Assembly (NCBI GenBank): GCA_019695115.1
Contig: JAIBAP010000001.1
Location: forward strand, 62,001-126,000
Reading direction: 5' to 3'
DNA: 64,000 nt
Source: Caldilineales bacterium
GTDB lineage: Bacteria > Chloroflexota > Anaerolineae > J102
Shown piece by piece: positions 106 through 27,350 of the stretch. A program made the position numbers and the translations under genes. A model generated the notes under the pieces. The model saw only the letters and a list, made by a program, of their open reading frames with translations. It was not told the origin of the DNA and did no database searches. The first letter of the stretch is position 1, and the number at the start of each line of letters is the position of its first letter.

Positions 106-1695
106 ATGAACCTCATCTCGGCCTTCTTCGTCCGCAATATCATCGTTGTCTATTTCGTCTACGGCCTGGCCTTCTTCGCCCTCAGCCTGGCGCTGCTGCA
201 GGCCGGCCGGAGACGTTCGGACTTCCGCTTTGCCACGGCCATCCTGCCGCTGGCCGGGTTTGGCGCCCTGCACGGCACACACGAATGGATCGAGATGTTT
301 CAGAAGATCGGGTCGTTGACGGCCGGCTTCACCCCCAGCCTGGCGGCCGAGTGGCTGCGCACCACCTTTCTGATCGCCTCTTTCGTCCTGCTTTTGGTCT
401 TCGGCATGTATCTGCTGGCCGCACCTGGGCGCACCTGGCAACAACTGGCCCTGCCGCTCTTCTGCATCCTCAGCCTGTGGGCCGTATCCCTGGTCGTGAG
501 CGCACGGCTGTTGCATGCCGACGCCGCTGCGACGGTGGCGCTGGCCGATGTCCTGGGCCGCTACAGCCTCGGCATCCCCGGCGCTCTGGTGGGTACATGG
601 GCCTTGATGCGGCAACAACGCACCTTTCGCGAACATGGGATGCCGCAGTTTGGTCGCGATCTGGTGTGGGCGGCGACGGCGATGGCGCTGTTCGGCATCG
701 TCGGGCAGGTCTTCGTCCGCCAGACCGCCCTCGTCCCCTCCACCTTCCTCAATAGCGCCGCCTTCTTGCAATGGTTTGGTATCCCGATCCAGCTCTTTCG
801 GGCCATCACCGCCGCGGCCATGACCTGGTTCATCACCCGCGCCCTCAACGCCTTCGAATTGGAGAGCCGGCGACAACTCGACGCCGCCATTGGCGCCAAG
901 GCCCAGGCGCAGGAGATGCAACTGGCCAGCGAACGCCGCGACCGCCAGGAGATCGAACGTCTCTACCGCGAGGTGCAGGGCCGGGAGGACCGCCTGGGGC
1001 AGCTCCTGCGACGGATCGTCAGCGCGCAGGAGGCCGAACGGCAGCGCATCGCCCGCGAACTGCACGACGCCACCGGCCAATCGCTCACAGCTATCTCACT
1101 CGGTCTCAAAGGCGTGGAAACGAGGGCTTTCAACGAAGCCAGCCCGGTGGTGGCGCAAGTGCATGAATTGGGCGCCATGAGCACGCAAGCCCTGGGCGAA
1201 CTAAGGCAGATCATCGCCGACCTGCGCCCCTCCCATCTCGACGACCTGGGTCTGGCCCCGACCCTGCGCTGGTACCTGAAGCAATACGAGGCGCGCTGGC
1301 GCATCCAGACCCGCCTGGTCGTCGGCGATGAGCAGACACGCCTGCCGGCCGAATACGAGACCGTCCTCTTCCGTATCACCCAAGAGGCGCTGAACAACGT
1401 CGCCAAACACGCTCAGGCCCAGAACGTGACCGTGACGTTGGCGCTGAAATCGCCGGAGGCCACGCTCACGGTCGAGGACGATGGCTGCGGCTTCGACCCG
1501 GCGGCCGTACAGCCGCGCGACAGTCGCCAGGGCGGATGGGGTTTGCTGGGCATCCGCGAGCGAGCGACGCTGGTGGGCGGCCGTGTCGAAATCCTCTCCC
1601 GACCGGGTCAGGGAACCCGGCTGGTCGTTACCCTCCCCATGCCTTTGGAGTCCCAACATGCCGGACAAGAAGATCAAATTGCTGCTGGTGGATGA
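106..1695 (+). CDS. Membrane sensor histidine kinase, NarX/DesK type
   Basis: Sensor kinase of a two-component system. About seven hydrophobic segments fill residues 5-245 with no recognisable extracellular sensor domain; a coiled-coil linker (about 250-300) follows. The HisKA_3 helix carries RELHDATGQS with the phosphoacceptor His near residue 320. The HATPase_c domain shows the N-box EALNNVAKHA (about 428-437), DDGCGFD and GWGLLGIRERA. An in-frame ATG exists at 13, but ATG 106 is preferred because the protein then starts directly before the first membrane segment and a TATAAT at 75-80 stays upstream. The 3' end overlaps the response regulator by 38 nt, so the two are translationally coupled. 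The signal it senses cannot be read from the sequence. Confidence 0.88.
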   Translation: MNLISAFFVRNIIVVYFVYGLAFFALSLALLQAGRRRSDFRFATAILPLAGFGALHGTHEWIEMFQKIGSLTAGFTPSLAAEWLRTTFLIASFVLLLVFGMYLLAAPGRTWQQLALPLFCILSLWAVSLVVSARLLHADAAATVALADVLGRYSLGIPGALVGTWALMRQQRTFREHGMPQFGRDLVWAATAMALFGIVGQVFVRQTALVPSTFLNSAAFLQWFGIPIQLFRAITAAAMTWFITRALNAFELESRRQLDAAIGAKAQAQEMQLASERRDRQEIERLYREVQGREDRLGQLLRRIVSAQEAERQRIARELHDATGQSLTAISLGLKGVETRAFNEASPVVAQVHELGAMSTQALGELRQIIADLRPSHLDDLGLAPTLRWYLKQYEARWRIQTRLVVGDEQTRLPAEYETVLFRITQEALNNVAKHAQAQNVTVTLALKSPEATLTVEDDGCGFDPAAVQPRDSRQGGWGLLGIRERATLVGGRVEILSRPGQGTRLVVTLPMPLESQHAGQEDQIAAGG

Positions 1696-2323
1696 TCACG
1701 AAATCGTGCGCGCCGGTTTGCGCATGCTGTTCATGGCCGAGCCGGACTTGAACATCGTTGGCGAAGCGGCCACCGGCGAGGCGGCGCTGGCCGCGGTGCA
1801 GGAATTGAAGCCGGACGTGGTGCTGATGGACATTGCCATGCCCGGCATGAGCGGCATCGAGGCCACGCGGCGGATCAAGACCCTCAGCCCCAACACCGCC
1901 ATCCTGGCCCTGACCATGTACGAAGACGAACCCTATTTCTTCCAGATGCTAGAGGCGGGGGCGTCGGGCTATGTGCCCAAGCGGGCTGCGGCGGATGATC
2001 TGGTATCGGCCATTCGCGTGGTGGCGCAGGACAATGTCTTCCTCTACCCCTCACTGGCGCGGCTGCTGGTGGCCGATTATGTCCAGCGGGATAGCGGCGG
2101 CCACGCCGAACCCGCCGACCTTCTGACCCCGCGCGAGCGCGAGGTCCTCACCTACATCGCCGAAGGCTACACCAACCGCGAGATCGCCGAGGCGCTGGTG
2201 CTGAGCGTGAAGACGGTGGACCGGCACCGCGAGAACATCATGCAGAAGCTGGACTTGCACAGCCGGGTGGCGCTGGTGAAATACGCCATCGAGAAGGGGC
2301 TGATCTCTACTGCGTCGAGTTGA
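1658..2323 (+). CDS. NarL/FixJ-type response regulator
   Basis: DNA-binding partner of the upstream kinase (221 aa). The receiver domain (about 1-125) begins IKLLLVDDHEIV, has the phosphoacceptor Asp near residue 58 in VVLMDIAMPGMSG and the switch Thr and Lys in LALTMYEDE and GYVPKRA. A LuxR-type HTH (about 155-215) carries LTPREREVLTYIAEG and the recognition helix TNREIAEALVLSVKTVDRH. The ATG at 1658 lies inside the kinase gene, 7 nt after a GGAG (1647-1650), and gives a full-length receiver domain; longer in-frame readings would only translate kinase sequence. Target genes are unknown. Confidence 0.93.
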   Translation: MPDKKIKLLLVDDHEIVRAGLRMLFMAEPDLNIVGEAATGEAALAAVQELKPDVVLMDIAMPGMSGIEATRRIKTLSPNTAILALTMYEDEPYFFQMLEAGASGYVPKRAAADDLVSAIRVVAQDNVFLYPSLARLLVADYVQRDSGGHAEPADLLTPREREVLTYIAEGYTNREIAEALVLSVKTVDRHRENIMQKLDLHSRVALVKYAIEKGLISTASS

Positions 2324-22811: not shown

Positions 22812-23855
22812 TTACGCCTCCACCTGGAAGTTGCCGGTCCAGCCCAGTTCGGCGAATTCGGTCTTGTGGGCATGGAACATGTATTTGCCAGGAAATTTGT
22901 AGCGAAATTCGAGCATCCCGCGCTGCGCCTGCATCTGGGCGATCATGTCTGTGTATTCGCTAGGGGTCAGGCTGGTGCCGGTCGGATAGTAATGGAACAG
23001 GTTGGCATGGAGGTGAAAGGAATTGATGGGGTCGAATTCCAAGATGTTGACCAGGAAGATGCGCACCAACTCGCCGACCTTGATGGCGATAGGATGGCGG
23101 TCGTAGTGAAAAGGTATCGTATTGACCGCGTACACATCGTTGGCCATGTCGAAATCCAGATCGAAGCCGTTCAGCACCATCACGAGTTCGCGGTCTGCCT
23201 GCGGCCAGCCTCCCGGCGGCTCGACGATGAAGGCGCCGTAGAGACCGCGGCTGATATGGGTGGCGAGGGGCATGATGTGGCAGTGGTAGAGATGGACGCC
23301 GAACGGCTCGGCGTCGAACTCATAGACGAATTGGCCCCCTGGCGGCACCGGCTCGAAGACGCCATCCATGCTACCCGGGTGGATGCCGTGGAAGTGGATG
23401 GTGTGGGGGTGGCCGGTGGCATTGAGAAAGTTGATGCGGATGCGGTCACCCTGGCGGGCGCGGATGGTGGGGCCGGGCACGCGGCCATTGTAGGTCCAGG
23501 CCTGGTAGACGATGCCGGGGACGACTTCGATATCCTTGATCTGGGCGACGAACAAAAACTCGCGCAGGGTCTGGCCGCTGGGTAAGGTGCTGACGGTCCC
23601 GTAGTCGAAATCGGTAAGGATGTCGGTGGGGTTGAAGCCGTTGGCAGCGTGGTCGACTTCGCCCACCGTGCCGGGCATGAACATGTGCTGGCCGTGGCCT
23701 CCACCTTGTGCGGGTGGGTGGGCTGGCAGAGATGCGGCCAGGGCCTGCCCCTGCTGGTTGGCTTTGAGCGCGACCCCGCCAGCAAGGCCCAGCAGACCCA
23801 GTGCACCGGCGCGGAGGAAGCTTCGGCGGTTGAGTTGATTGGAGCGAAATGGCAT
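22812..23855 (-). CDS. Tat-exported two-domain multicopper oxidase
   Basis: 347 aa. A Tat signal RRSFLR lies at 10-15. Copper ligands are visible: HTIHFHGIHPG (His154, His156), HLYHCHIMP (His188, His191, Cys192, His193, with Met195 as possible T1 axial ligand), FHLHANLF (His281, His283) and MFHAHKTEF (His328, His330). This gives one type 1 site in domain 1 and the trinuclear-site histidines of a small, two-domain oxidase that would act as a trimer. It is the first gene of an operon with a ZIP permease behind an iron/manganese-type operator, so a metallo-oxidase role in metal uptake or defence is likely. Confidence 0.88.
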   Translation of the reverse strand: MPFRSNQLNRRSFLRAGALGLLGLAGGVALKANQQGQALAASLPAHPPAQGGGHGQHMFMPGTVGEVDHAANGFNPTDILTDFDYGTVSTLPSGQTLREFLFVAQIKDIEVVPGIVYQAWTYNGRVPGPTIRARQGDRIRINFLNATGHPHTIHFHGIHPGSMDGVFEPVPPGGQFVYEFDAEPFGVHLYHCHIMPLATHISRGLYGAFIVEPPGGWPQADRELVMVLNGFDLDFDMANDVYAVNTIPFHYDRHPIAIKVGELVRIFLVNILEFDPINSFHLHANLFHYYPTGTSLTPSEYTDMIAQMQAQRGMLEFRYKFPGKYMFHAHKTEFAELGWTGNFQVEA

Positions 23856-24060: not shown

Positions 24061-24089
24061 TGGACACAGGGGGTGAAGGCGTTTAGAAT
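24061..24089 (+). promoter_or_regulatory. Promoter of the thioredoxin-like gene
   Basis: TGGACA (24061-24066), 17 bp spacer, TAGAAT (24084-24089); each box is one base off consensus. It lies 42 nt upstream of the ATG at 24131. The rest of 23919-24060 shows no gene. Confidence 0.65.
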
Positions 24090-24130: not shown

Positions 24131-24520
24131 ATGCGAACAAACGTAGCGTTCTTCCTTCTTCTCGCCGGCGTCGCCCTCCTCAACGCCTGCGGGGGGCAGC
24201 AGACGCCCTCTCCCTTCGCCCCCGCCGGCCAATCCCAGGGCATGCCGACGCTGCTGTACGTGTTTGCCGACCCCTGACCGGCCTGAGAGCAGATGACGCC
24301 CATCGTGAATGGGCTGGAAGCTGAGTACGGCGAGCGCATCATCTTCGTGAAACTGGATGCCAACACGCCAGAGGGACGTCAGGCGATGCAGGCCTACCAG
24401 CTGCGCGGGCACCCGGCCATCGTGCTGTTCGATTCTGCCGGCGATGTGGCCTGGCAAAGCCTGGGCCTGCAAGGGCGCGAGGAGGTGGCCGCGGCTATCG
24501 CTCAGCTGGTCGAGCCTTGA
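24131..24520 (+). CDS. Thioredoxin-like lipoprotein with two in-frame TGA codons (candidate selenoprotein, UxxU)
   Basis: Read through two TGA codons, this is a continuous 129-residue protein. Residues 1-20 are a lipoprotein signal peptide with lipobox LNAC (Cys20). The strand LLYVFADP is followed by TGA-Pro-Ala-TGA at residues 49-52 (24275-24277 and 24284-24286), then EQMTPIVNGLEAEYGERIIF and VKLDANTPEGRQAMQAYQLR and GHPAIVLFD. That is a complete thioredoxin fold with the cis-Pro in GHPA, and the TGAs stand exactly at the CxxC cysteines. A perfect hairpin 11 nt after the second TGA fits a bacterial SECIS. Known from other families: Sec replaces Cys in redox motifs. Inferred: both TGAs are decoded as Sec. 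The alternative is a pseudogene or two read errors, which would have to hit both Cys codons. Confidence 0.72.
24298..24314 (+). promoter_or_regulatory. Candidate bacterial SECIS hairpin of the thioredoxin-like gene
   Basis: GCCCAT-CGTGA-ATGGGC: a perfect 6 bp stem with a 5 nt loop containing GU, starting 11 nt after the second TGA and 20 nt after the first. Spacing and a GU-bearing loop match the known requirements for SelB recognition; the loop CGUG is shared with the rhodanese hairpin. Confidence 0.6.
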
Positions 24521-24547: not shown

Positions 24548-24820
24548 TCAGTCTCCATTCCAGTCTCCGTCAATGGCCGTGCCATTGGCAACTGCTTGCG
24601 TGCGTATGCGTTCCAGGGTGTCACGAAACCGCAGCATGACTTCGTCACTTGAGAGATGCGCCATCTCAGACGCAAGTCGCTCGGCCTCGTTCCGAATCTC
24701 GGTTGCGCTCGTCTGACGCTCGGCAGTCATGCGTTCGTCCGTCAGACGGCGAACGAATTCCATCACCCGCGCCACGTCTGGTTCGGGCAGAAGCGCTACT
24801 TTAGTTTGCTGTCCTTTCAC
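24548..24820 (-). CDS. Hypothetical protein downstream of the rhodanese
   Basis: 90 aa, GTG start overlapping the rhodanese stop by 4 nt. The sequence is charged and helical (VMEFVRRLTDERMTAERQT, NEAERLASEMAHLSSDEVML) without membrane segment, Cys or recognised domain. The overlap suggests it is translated as the third gene of the Hdr-rhodanese unit. It converges with the thioredoxin-like gene, leaving 27 nt between them. Confidence 0.5.
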   Translation of the reverse strand: MKGQQTKVALLPEPDVARVMEFVRRLTDERMTAERQTSATEIRNEAERLASEMAHLSSDEVMLRFRDTLERIRTQAVANGTAIDGDWNGD

Positions 24821-25343
24821 CCACCCTCCACCGCATACCCCGCCTCCTCCCAAACGGCAAAACCGCCCAACAGCGGCGTCACACGGCTGAAACCTGCCTC
24901 CAACATCATCTGCGCCGCACGGGCGCTGGTCTCTTCGGCCGGTCAGGTGCAGTAGGTGATGATCCACCGCCCCTTGTCCAACTTGCCCAGCTCCTGTTCG
25001 AGCCGGGTCAGGGGGATGGACTCGGCCCCAGCGATGTGGCTGGTCTCATACGAGCCGGCATCGCGCACATCCAGGAACAGGGCGCTGCCGGCGTCGAAGG
25101 CGGCTTTGGCCTCGGCCAGGGTGGCGCGTGGGATATCAGAGACGTTGACCGCAACGGGCGCAGCCGGGGTGGGGGCCAGGGCAGGCGGCGCCAGGGCAGG
25201 CGGCGCCAGGGCAGGCGGCGCCAGGGCAGGCGGCGCCAGGGCAGGCGGCGCCAGAGCCAGGGCGATCACCAAGATCAGCAGGGCCAGGCCCGCGCCCACC
25301 AGGATCAACGGCCAGCGCGAGGGAGAGGGCTTTGGGGAGGGTT

Positions 25344-25347
<4 letters not shown>
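24817..25347 (-). CDS. Membrane-anchored rhodanese with in-frame TGA (candidate selenoprotein, YCxU)
   Basis: A 176-residue protein if TGA at 24945-24943 is read through. It has an N-terminal membrane anchor (about 12-32), five Ala-Pro-Pro-Ala-Leu repeats (about 33-57) as a linker, and a rhodanese domain with ALFLDVRDAGSYETSHIAGA and GRWIITYCT-TGA-PAEETSA, then ARAAQMMLEAGFSRVTPLLG and GFAVWEEAGYAV ending at a normal TGA. Cysteine homologues have YCxCP at this site, so the TGA (residue 135) replaces the second Cys and the sequence after it is clearly rhodanese. The catalytic-loop Cys133 remains. A perfect hairpin follows 16 nt later. The gene start overlaps the Hdr-like gene stop by 4 nt. Sec decoding is inferred. 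Confidence 0.75.
24912..24926 (-). promoter_or_regulatory. Candidate bacterial SECIS hairpin of the rhodanese gene
   Basis: Read on the minus strand: GCGCC-CGTGC-GGCGC, a perfect 5 bp stem with a 5 nt loop containing GU, beginning 16 nt after the TGA. It has the same CGUG loop core as the hairpin in the thioredoxin-like gene. Confidence 0.55.
25176..25250. repeat. Five perfect 15 bp repeats in the rhodanese linker
   Basis: The unit CCAGGGCAGGCGGCG is repeated five times and encodes the Ala-Pro-Pro-Ala-Leu linker between membrane anchor and rhodanese domain. Identical copies make copy-number variation by slippage likely. Confidence 0.95.

Positions 25348-27350
<2,003 letters not shown>

Follow-up and report, generated by a model that had tools for sequence, protein, structure and literature searches.

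The window, which is the whole 64,000-nt stretch of DNA analysed here, contains a gene for a thioredoxin-like lipoprotein that most probably (we estimate about 0.93) carries selenocysteine (Sec) at both active-site positions, forming a UxxU motif. Insertion of Sec is inferred, as no mass spectrometry is available, and the inference is near-certain; it is based on the conserved reading frame with both of its TGA codons, the Sec machinery of the genome, and a downstream hairpin showing covariation. As far as sequences can tell, the double-Sec thioredoxin is a family and not an oddity.

Translation of positions 24131-24520 (+) yielded a single frame, MRTNVAFFLLLAGVALLNAC...FADP-U-PA-U-EQMTPIVNGLE...LVEP-stop (Table 1), whose terminator at 24518-24520 is likewise TGA. 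The lipobox reads LLNAC; the Asn at -2 is atypical, and the Cys is invariant in an alignment of 12 sequences. With U read as Cys, the protein passed the Pfam cutoff for thioredoxin (PF00085; 34.4 versus 23.5 bits) and missed the NCBIfam equivalog cutoff of cytoplasmic TrxA with its CGPC motif (TIGR01068; 38.5 versus 96.8 bits), from which it also differs by the lipoprotein signal and the UPAU motif. None of the NCBIfam profiles matched the window protein above cutoff, and the NF041115 profile was absent from its NCBIfam matches (P0001) up to an E value of 1. The AlphaFold2 model displayed the helix and strand order of thioredoxin with pLDDT values >90 across most of the domain, and placed a helix (residues 50-66, pLDDT 86) directly after the active-site motif. 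The best matches in the PDB, by sequence-profile search as well as Foldseek, were thioredoxins. At the cis-Pro position, Gly-His-Pro (GHP) is invariant in the 12 aligned sequences and aligns with VPT/IPT of relatives; this assignment comes from the alignment alone, without geometry. The sequence-only reading had described a lipoprotein signal peptide, TGA-Pro-Ala-TGA, and a thioredoxin domain in one frame, which the frame check and the PF00085 score confirmed. Its interpretation as an exported double-Sec UxxU thioredoxin-like lipoprotein is, given the homologs and the Sec machinery, now the best-supported one. The promoter it had called good does exist as a site with 10/12 consensus matches, but the word "good" has no basis beyond that match. 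No obvious Shine-Dalgarno sequence was seen for the UxxU gene.

Table 1. Features of the UxxU locus and its neighbours (window coordinates)
Feature	Position	Strand	Remark
Multicopper oxidase gene, divergent	22812..23855	-	Adjoins UxxU gene
Sigma-70-like promoter match TGGACA-17-TAGAAT	24061..24089	+	Consensus match only
UxxU thioredoxin-like lipoprotein gene	24131..24520	+	129 aa, 129 codons, terminator TGA
Lipoprotein signal peptide MRTNVAFFLLLAGVALLNAC	24131..24190	+	Lipobox Cys20 invariant in 12-sequence alignment
First (inferred) Sec codon TGA, residue 49, N-terminal active-site position	24275..24277	+	Invariant in 54 genes
Second (inferred) Sec codon TGA, residue 52, resolving position	24284..24286	+	Invariant in 54 genes
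SECIS-like hairpin GCCCAU-CGUGA-AUGGGC	24298..24314	+	Covariation, loop conservation, spacing
Gly-His-Pro, His preceding cis-Pro position	24407..24415	+	Clade marker of UxxU family
Rhodanese-like gene, convergent, in-frame TGA 24943-24945 (motif CTU)	24815..25347	-	
Fe-S/CCG-domain oxidoreductase gene, convergent, directly upstream of rhodanese on its strand	25344..27350	-	4-bp overlap with rhodanese gene

Homologs were sought with Cys and Sec scored alike, so that the searches were not biased toward TGA. The window protein with Cys in place of U served as the first query and uncovered two-TGA homologs in a search of 100 relatives. A profile of 12 two-TGA sequences was then run on the same Chloroflexota class, represented by 396 genomes. 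Overall, the searches gave 54 distinct homologous genes carrying TGA at each of the two active-site positions, distributed over approximately 50 of these genomes. Almost every match above approximately 102 bits carried two TGAs, and relatives with other motifs (31 UxxC and 12 CxxC) had lower scores. The distribution is patchy: the two same-genus relatives that were searched lack the gene, and it is present in seven genomes of the organism's family, its own among them. A plasmid collection contained only distant ordinary thioredoxins.

In a tree built with both motif residues masked, 52 UxxU genes formed one clade (UFboot 97 / SH-aLRT 68), which also takes in a single UxxC sequence on a long branch, derived from an Actinomycetota bin. 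The USHU gene L026 occupies a long branch, and its placement is unsure. A UPTU thioredoxin (L128, genome G216) lies inside a UPTC clade, where it has AQP and no His before the cis-Pro; it represents an apparent separate second gain of UxxU, judged from its sequence. Within the class, His preceding the cis-Pro was present in 52/52 assessable main-family UxxU proteins versus 0/43 UxxC/CxxC proteins, leaving out L019, whose sequence ends before that site. A search of 400 genomes of the phylum revealed GHP-bearing homologs outside the class, one with CPFC (G409, L167) and one with UPVC (G660, L172). GHP therefore marks the clade and not the second Sec, and a strict tie between the two was rejected. 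The in-frame UGAs align with Cys residues of homologs, the CPFC protein of G409 among them. Genome G409 retains SelA, and its CPFC gene, a member of the GHP clade, keeps the CGTG sequence with a broken stem, a possible relic or precursor of a SECIS element. Whether the change proceeded from CxxC via UxxC to UxxU or was locally reversed is not settled.

Genes within 3 kb were counted for 51 UxxU loci and for 27 controls, consisting of UxxC/CxxC genes and the UPTU gene L128. A cytochrome c resembling subunit III of the cbb3 type occurred near 22/51 UxxU loci versus 0/27 controls (p=1e-5), a heavy-metal P-type ATPase near 17/51 versus 1/27 (p=0.004), and a DsbA-like protein near 11/51 versus 1/27 (p=0.05), all values being uncorrected for relatedness. 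Two representative neighbour ATPases scored above the cutoff of the copper-translocating model TIGR01511, and cupredoxin, PCYCGC, and DUF2085 proteins were recurrent near UxxU genes. Rhodanese was considered as a constant partner and rejected, as it is present at few UxxU loci only. One locus (L051, genome G068, 1158-1961 (-)) encodes a natural fusion of a UxxU thioredoxin and a c-type cytochrome domain (P0003). At three others (L045, L046, and L047), a DsbA-like gene follows shortly downstream of the UxxU gene; it has an in-frame TGA (DYT-U-PYC) as well as a strong hairpin and is a candidate for another selenoprotein. In L045, a CPFC-type second domain comes after the DsbA-like UPYC part.

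On the window contig, the associated types of copper ATPase and cytochrome c are both missing from the vicinity of the gene, and the multicopper oxidase alone adjoins it. The rhodanese of the window is a candidate second selenoprotein. Its hairpin, GCGCC-CGUGC-GGCGC, has a CGUG loop as in the thioredoxin gene, and so has the rhodanese hairpin of L044. The protein is close to the NCBIfam entry NF041203, "rhodanese-related (seleno)protein," but below its cutoff, and CxU is a published motif of rhodanese selenoproteins (PMC13188914). A fivefold 15-bp tandem repeat at 25185-25255 in the same gene encodes an Ala-Leu-Ala-Pro-Pro linker.

From the copper-type P-type ATPase, cbb3-type cytochrome c, DsbA-like, and cupredoxin neighbours, we infer a role in copper- or respiration-related thiol chemistry of the envelope. 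The UxxU protein would be an envelope oxidoreductase acting on thiols of copper sites or respiratory proteins; its redox chemistry is likewise inferred, oxidation being expected to yield a diselenide of very low potential that nevertheless reacts fast. This copper/cytochrome redox role is a hypothesis with roughly even chances of being correct. In view of the low potential of the UxxU diselenide (PMC6054048), strong reducing power is expected of the reduced protein, unless it acts as a ligand of soft metals instead.

The second option deserves consideration, and we regard it as possible but rather doubtful. The lipoprotein might serve mainly as a ligand or chaperone for Cu(I) or other soft metals and not as an oxidoreductase, its two selenols binding Cu(I) that comes from the P-type ATPase encoded nearby. 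Selenolates are soft and strong ligands of Cu(I), copper-type P-type ATPases and cupredoxins are associated with the family, and UxxU is also the motif of the metal-binding NF041115 selenoproteins (PMC13188914). However, the protein has a bona fide thioredoxin fold with the cis-Pro position, the cytochrome c and DsbA-like neighbours suit redox work equally well, and the locus of the window has no copper ATPase in its vicinity. We give about even odds to the comprehensive picture, namely, a widespread natural family of diselenide thioredoxins that would be lipid-anchored outside the cell, use two UGAs per shared SECIS, and function in copper handling or the maturation of respiratory proteins alongside a copper ATPase and a cytochrome c, with a DsbA-like protein as partner.

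The recoding signal is presumably the hairpin downstream of the second TGA (Table 1). The published model of bacterial SECIS elements requires a loop of 3-9 nt in which G occupies one of the first two positions, a stem of 4-16 bp, a distance of 16-37 nt from the UGA, and an MFE <= -7.5 (PMC13188914). Counted to the start of its loop, the window hairpin lies 17 nt downstream of the second TGA and 26 nt downstream of the first, and meets the rule for both UGAs. With both codons inside 16-37 nt, one SECIS can serve both, which we infer to be the case. A loop beginning with CGUG was found in 54/54 UxxU genes. Owing to this invariant loop, the Val codon within it is pinned to GUG (54/54), as compared to 66/164 GUG among the Val codons elsewhere in the same genes. 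The stem codons are linked as well: ATC goes with AAT, GAT, or CAT (51/51) and GTC with AAC (3/3), a largely nucleotide-level relationship. In UxxU and UxxC genes, the folding excess over synonymous-codon shuffles peaked 12-45 nt after the first TGA, with little further downstream; the mean z values in this interval were -1.33 for UxxU (n=54) and -1.55 for UxxC (n=30), whereas CxxC genes showed no excess (0.12, n=12). Two-sided stem changes (12 in UxxU, involving 4 pairs, with 0/500 shuffles; 26 in UxxC, involving 5 pairs) were more numerous than in all, or in nearly all, of the shuffles. Far fewer cells were paired in slid controls. In UxxU and UxxC genes, 89-90% of the stem cells were paired versus 58% in CxxC genes, where the hairpin is broken. 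On the weaker side, our strict automatic version of the bSECIS rule was passed by only 29/54 family genes, versus 21/216 control positions, RNAalifold returned no consensus structure for the UxxU set, and the corresponding 64 nt of the window, folded freely, favoured a different pairing (z -0.98). An Rfam search of the locus gave nothing meaningful.

According to our model, SelB would insert Sec at UGA 49 and UGA 52 of the membrane-anchored extracytoplasmic thioredoxin, directed by a single SECIS hairpin just 3' of the second UGA that leaves both codons within SelB reach. As the hairpin was already in range of both codons, the second Sec would have been accessible by a single change, which is again an inference. 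Probably, the codon of the resolving Cys in a UxxC ancestor turned from TGC/TGT into TGA within the range of the existing SECIS, and the second Sec would afterwards have been kept by selection.

Sec insertion is inefficient in bacteria, and the hairpin sits at the same position in the UxxC relatives, where the first codon alone is TGA. Both facts are compatible with a situation in which just one TGA is efficiently decoded (the second, or the first as in the UxxC relatives), while the other often terminates translation or takes another residue, UxxU being a tolerated, partly processed variant. We consider this very improbable, because neither TGA varies among the 54 genes, reversion to Cys is not seen in any Anaerolineae member of the main UxxU clade, and both UGAs comply with the spacing rule.

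Sec at both positions is also what the gene content of the organism permits. The genome (G000; 6.0 Mb, 100% complete) encodes tRNA-Sec (73 bits), SelA (553 bits), SelB (above cutoff, 307 bits), and SelD (353 bits), the last from a gene with an in-frame TGA of its own. Its named relatives place the organism in the Chloroflexota, within the Anaerolineae/Caldilineae group. Lack of selA, selB, selD, and tRNA-Sec would have refuted the sequence-only reading, and all four were found; its other potential refuter, TGA misread from TGC/TGT, is excluded by the same TGAs in independent genomes. Occurrence of the same two codons in 54 homologs reflects neither chance nor sequencing error. A code change that makes UGA an ordinary amino acid, or a pseudogene or sequencing artefact, could account for three TGAs in the region, stop included, but was rejected with hardly any residual doubt, as the Sec machinery is complete, the TGAs are confined to redox-Cys positions in independent genomes, relatives have TAA or TAG as terminator at the corresponding alignment position, and the protein sequence is conserved on both sides of the motif.

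Sec normally replaces one of two redox cysteines and, given how difficult a diselenide is to reduce, the benefit of a second Sec is not self-evident. The approximately 50 genes that keep both Sec codons provide a natural test case in which CxxC, UxxC, and UxxU forms can be compared, and the neighbouring copper-ATPase and cytochrome genes hint at what the UxxU thioredoxin may do. The same genes are well suited to the question of whether a single bacterial SECIS can recode two UGAs nine nucleotides apart. Since a standard gene caller would cut them at codon 48, many annotations probably lack the family or contain it in truncated form, although this is an expectation only.

We found no report of a UxxU family within PF00085, or of this Chloroflexota clade, in the open-licence literature searched. 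In the prokaryotic selenoprotein inventory of 2026, PF00085 thioredoxins are entered as UxxC only, and UxxU is given for PF00578, NF041115, and FmdB (PMC13188914); CxxU has been reported for one metagenomic Trx-like 1 family (PMC13188914, PMC2398784). Thus, UxxC thioredoxins and UxxU in other folds are known, and UxxU in the thioredoxin family is not listed there. With the UxxC thioredoxins of PF00085, the window protein shares the fold, Sec at the N-terminal active-site position, and a bacterial SECIS after the Sec codon, but it differs in having Sec at both positions, in being a lipoprotein, and in the His before the cis-Pro. The UxxU proteins of other families (the Prx-like thiol:disulfide oxidoreductases of PF00578, GOS Prx-like 2, NF041115, and FmdB-like proteins) likewise carry two Sec two residues apart, but belong to peroxiredoxin-like, metal-binding, or FmdB-type regulator families. 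The NF041057 Rcas_1661 family (DsbA/DsbG-like) also comprises thioredoxin-like (seleno)lipoproteins, and a related DsbA-like protein is often encoded next to the UxxU gene; unlike the UxxU proteins, that family is DsbA-like (PF13462), with a match in L166 that remains below the NCBIfam cutoff and a UPYC form in L045-L047. Finally, synthetic UxxU peptides combine two Sec in a redox motif with a low-potential diselenide (PMC6054048). Whereas those peptides are man-made, the double Sec inferred for the family described here is natural and widely conserved.
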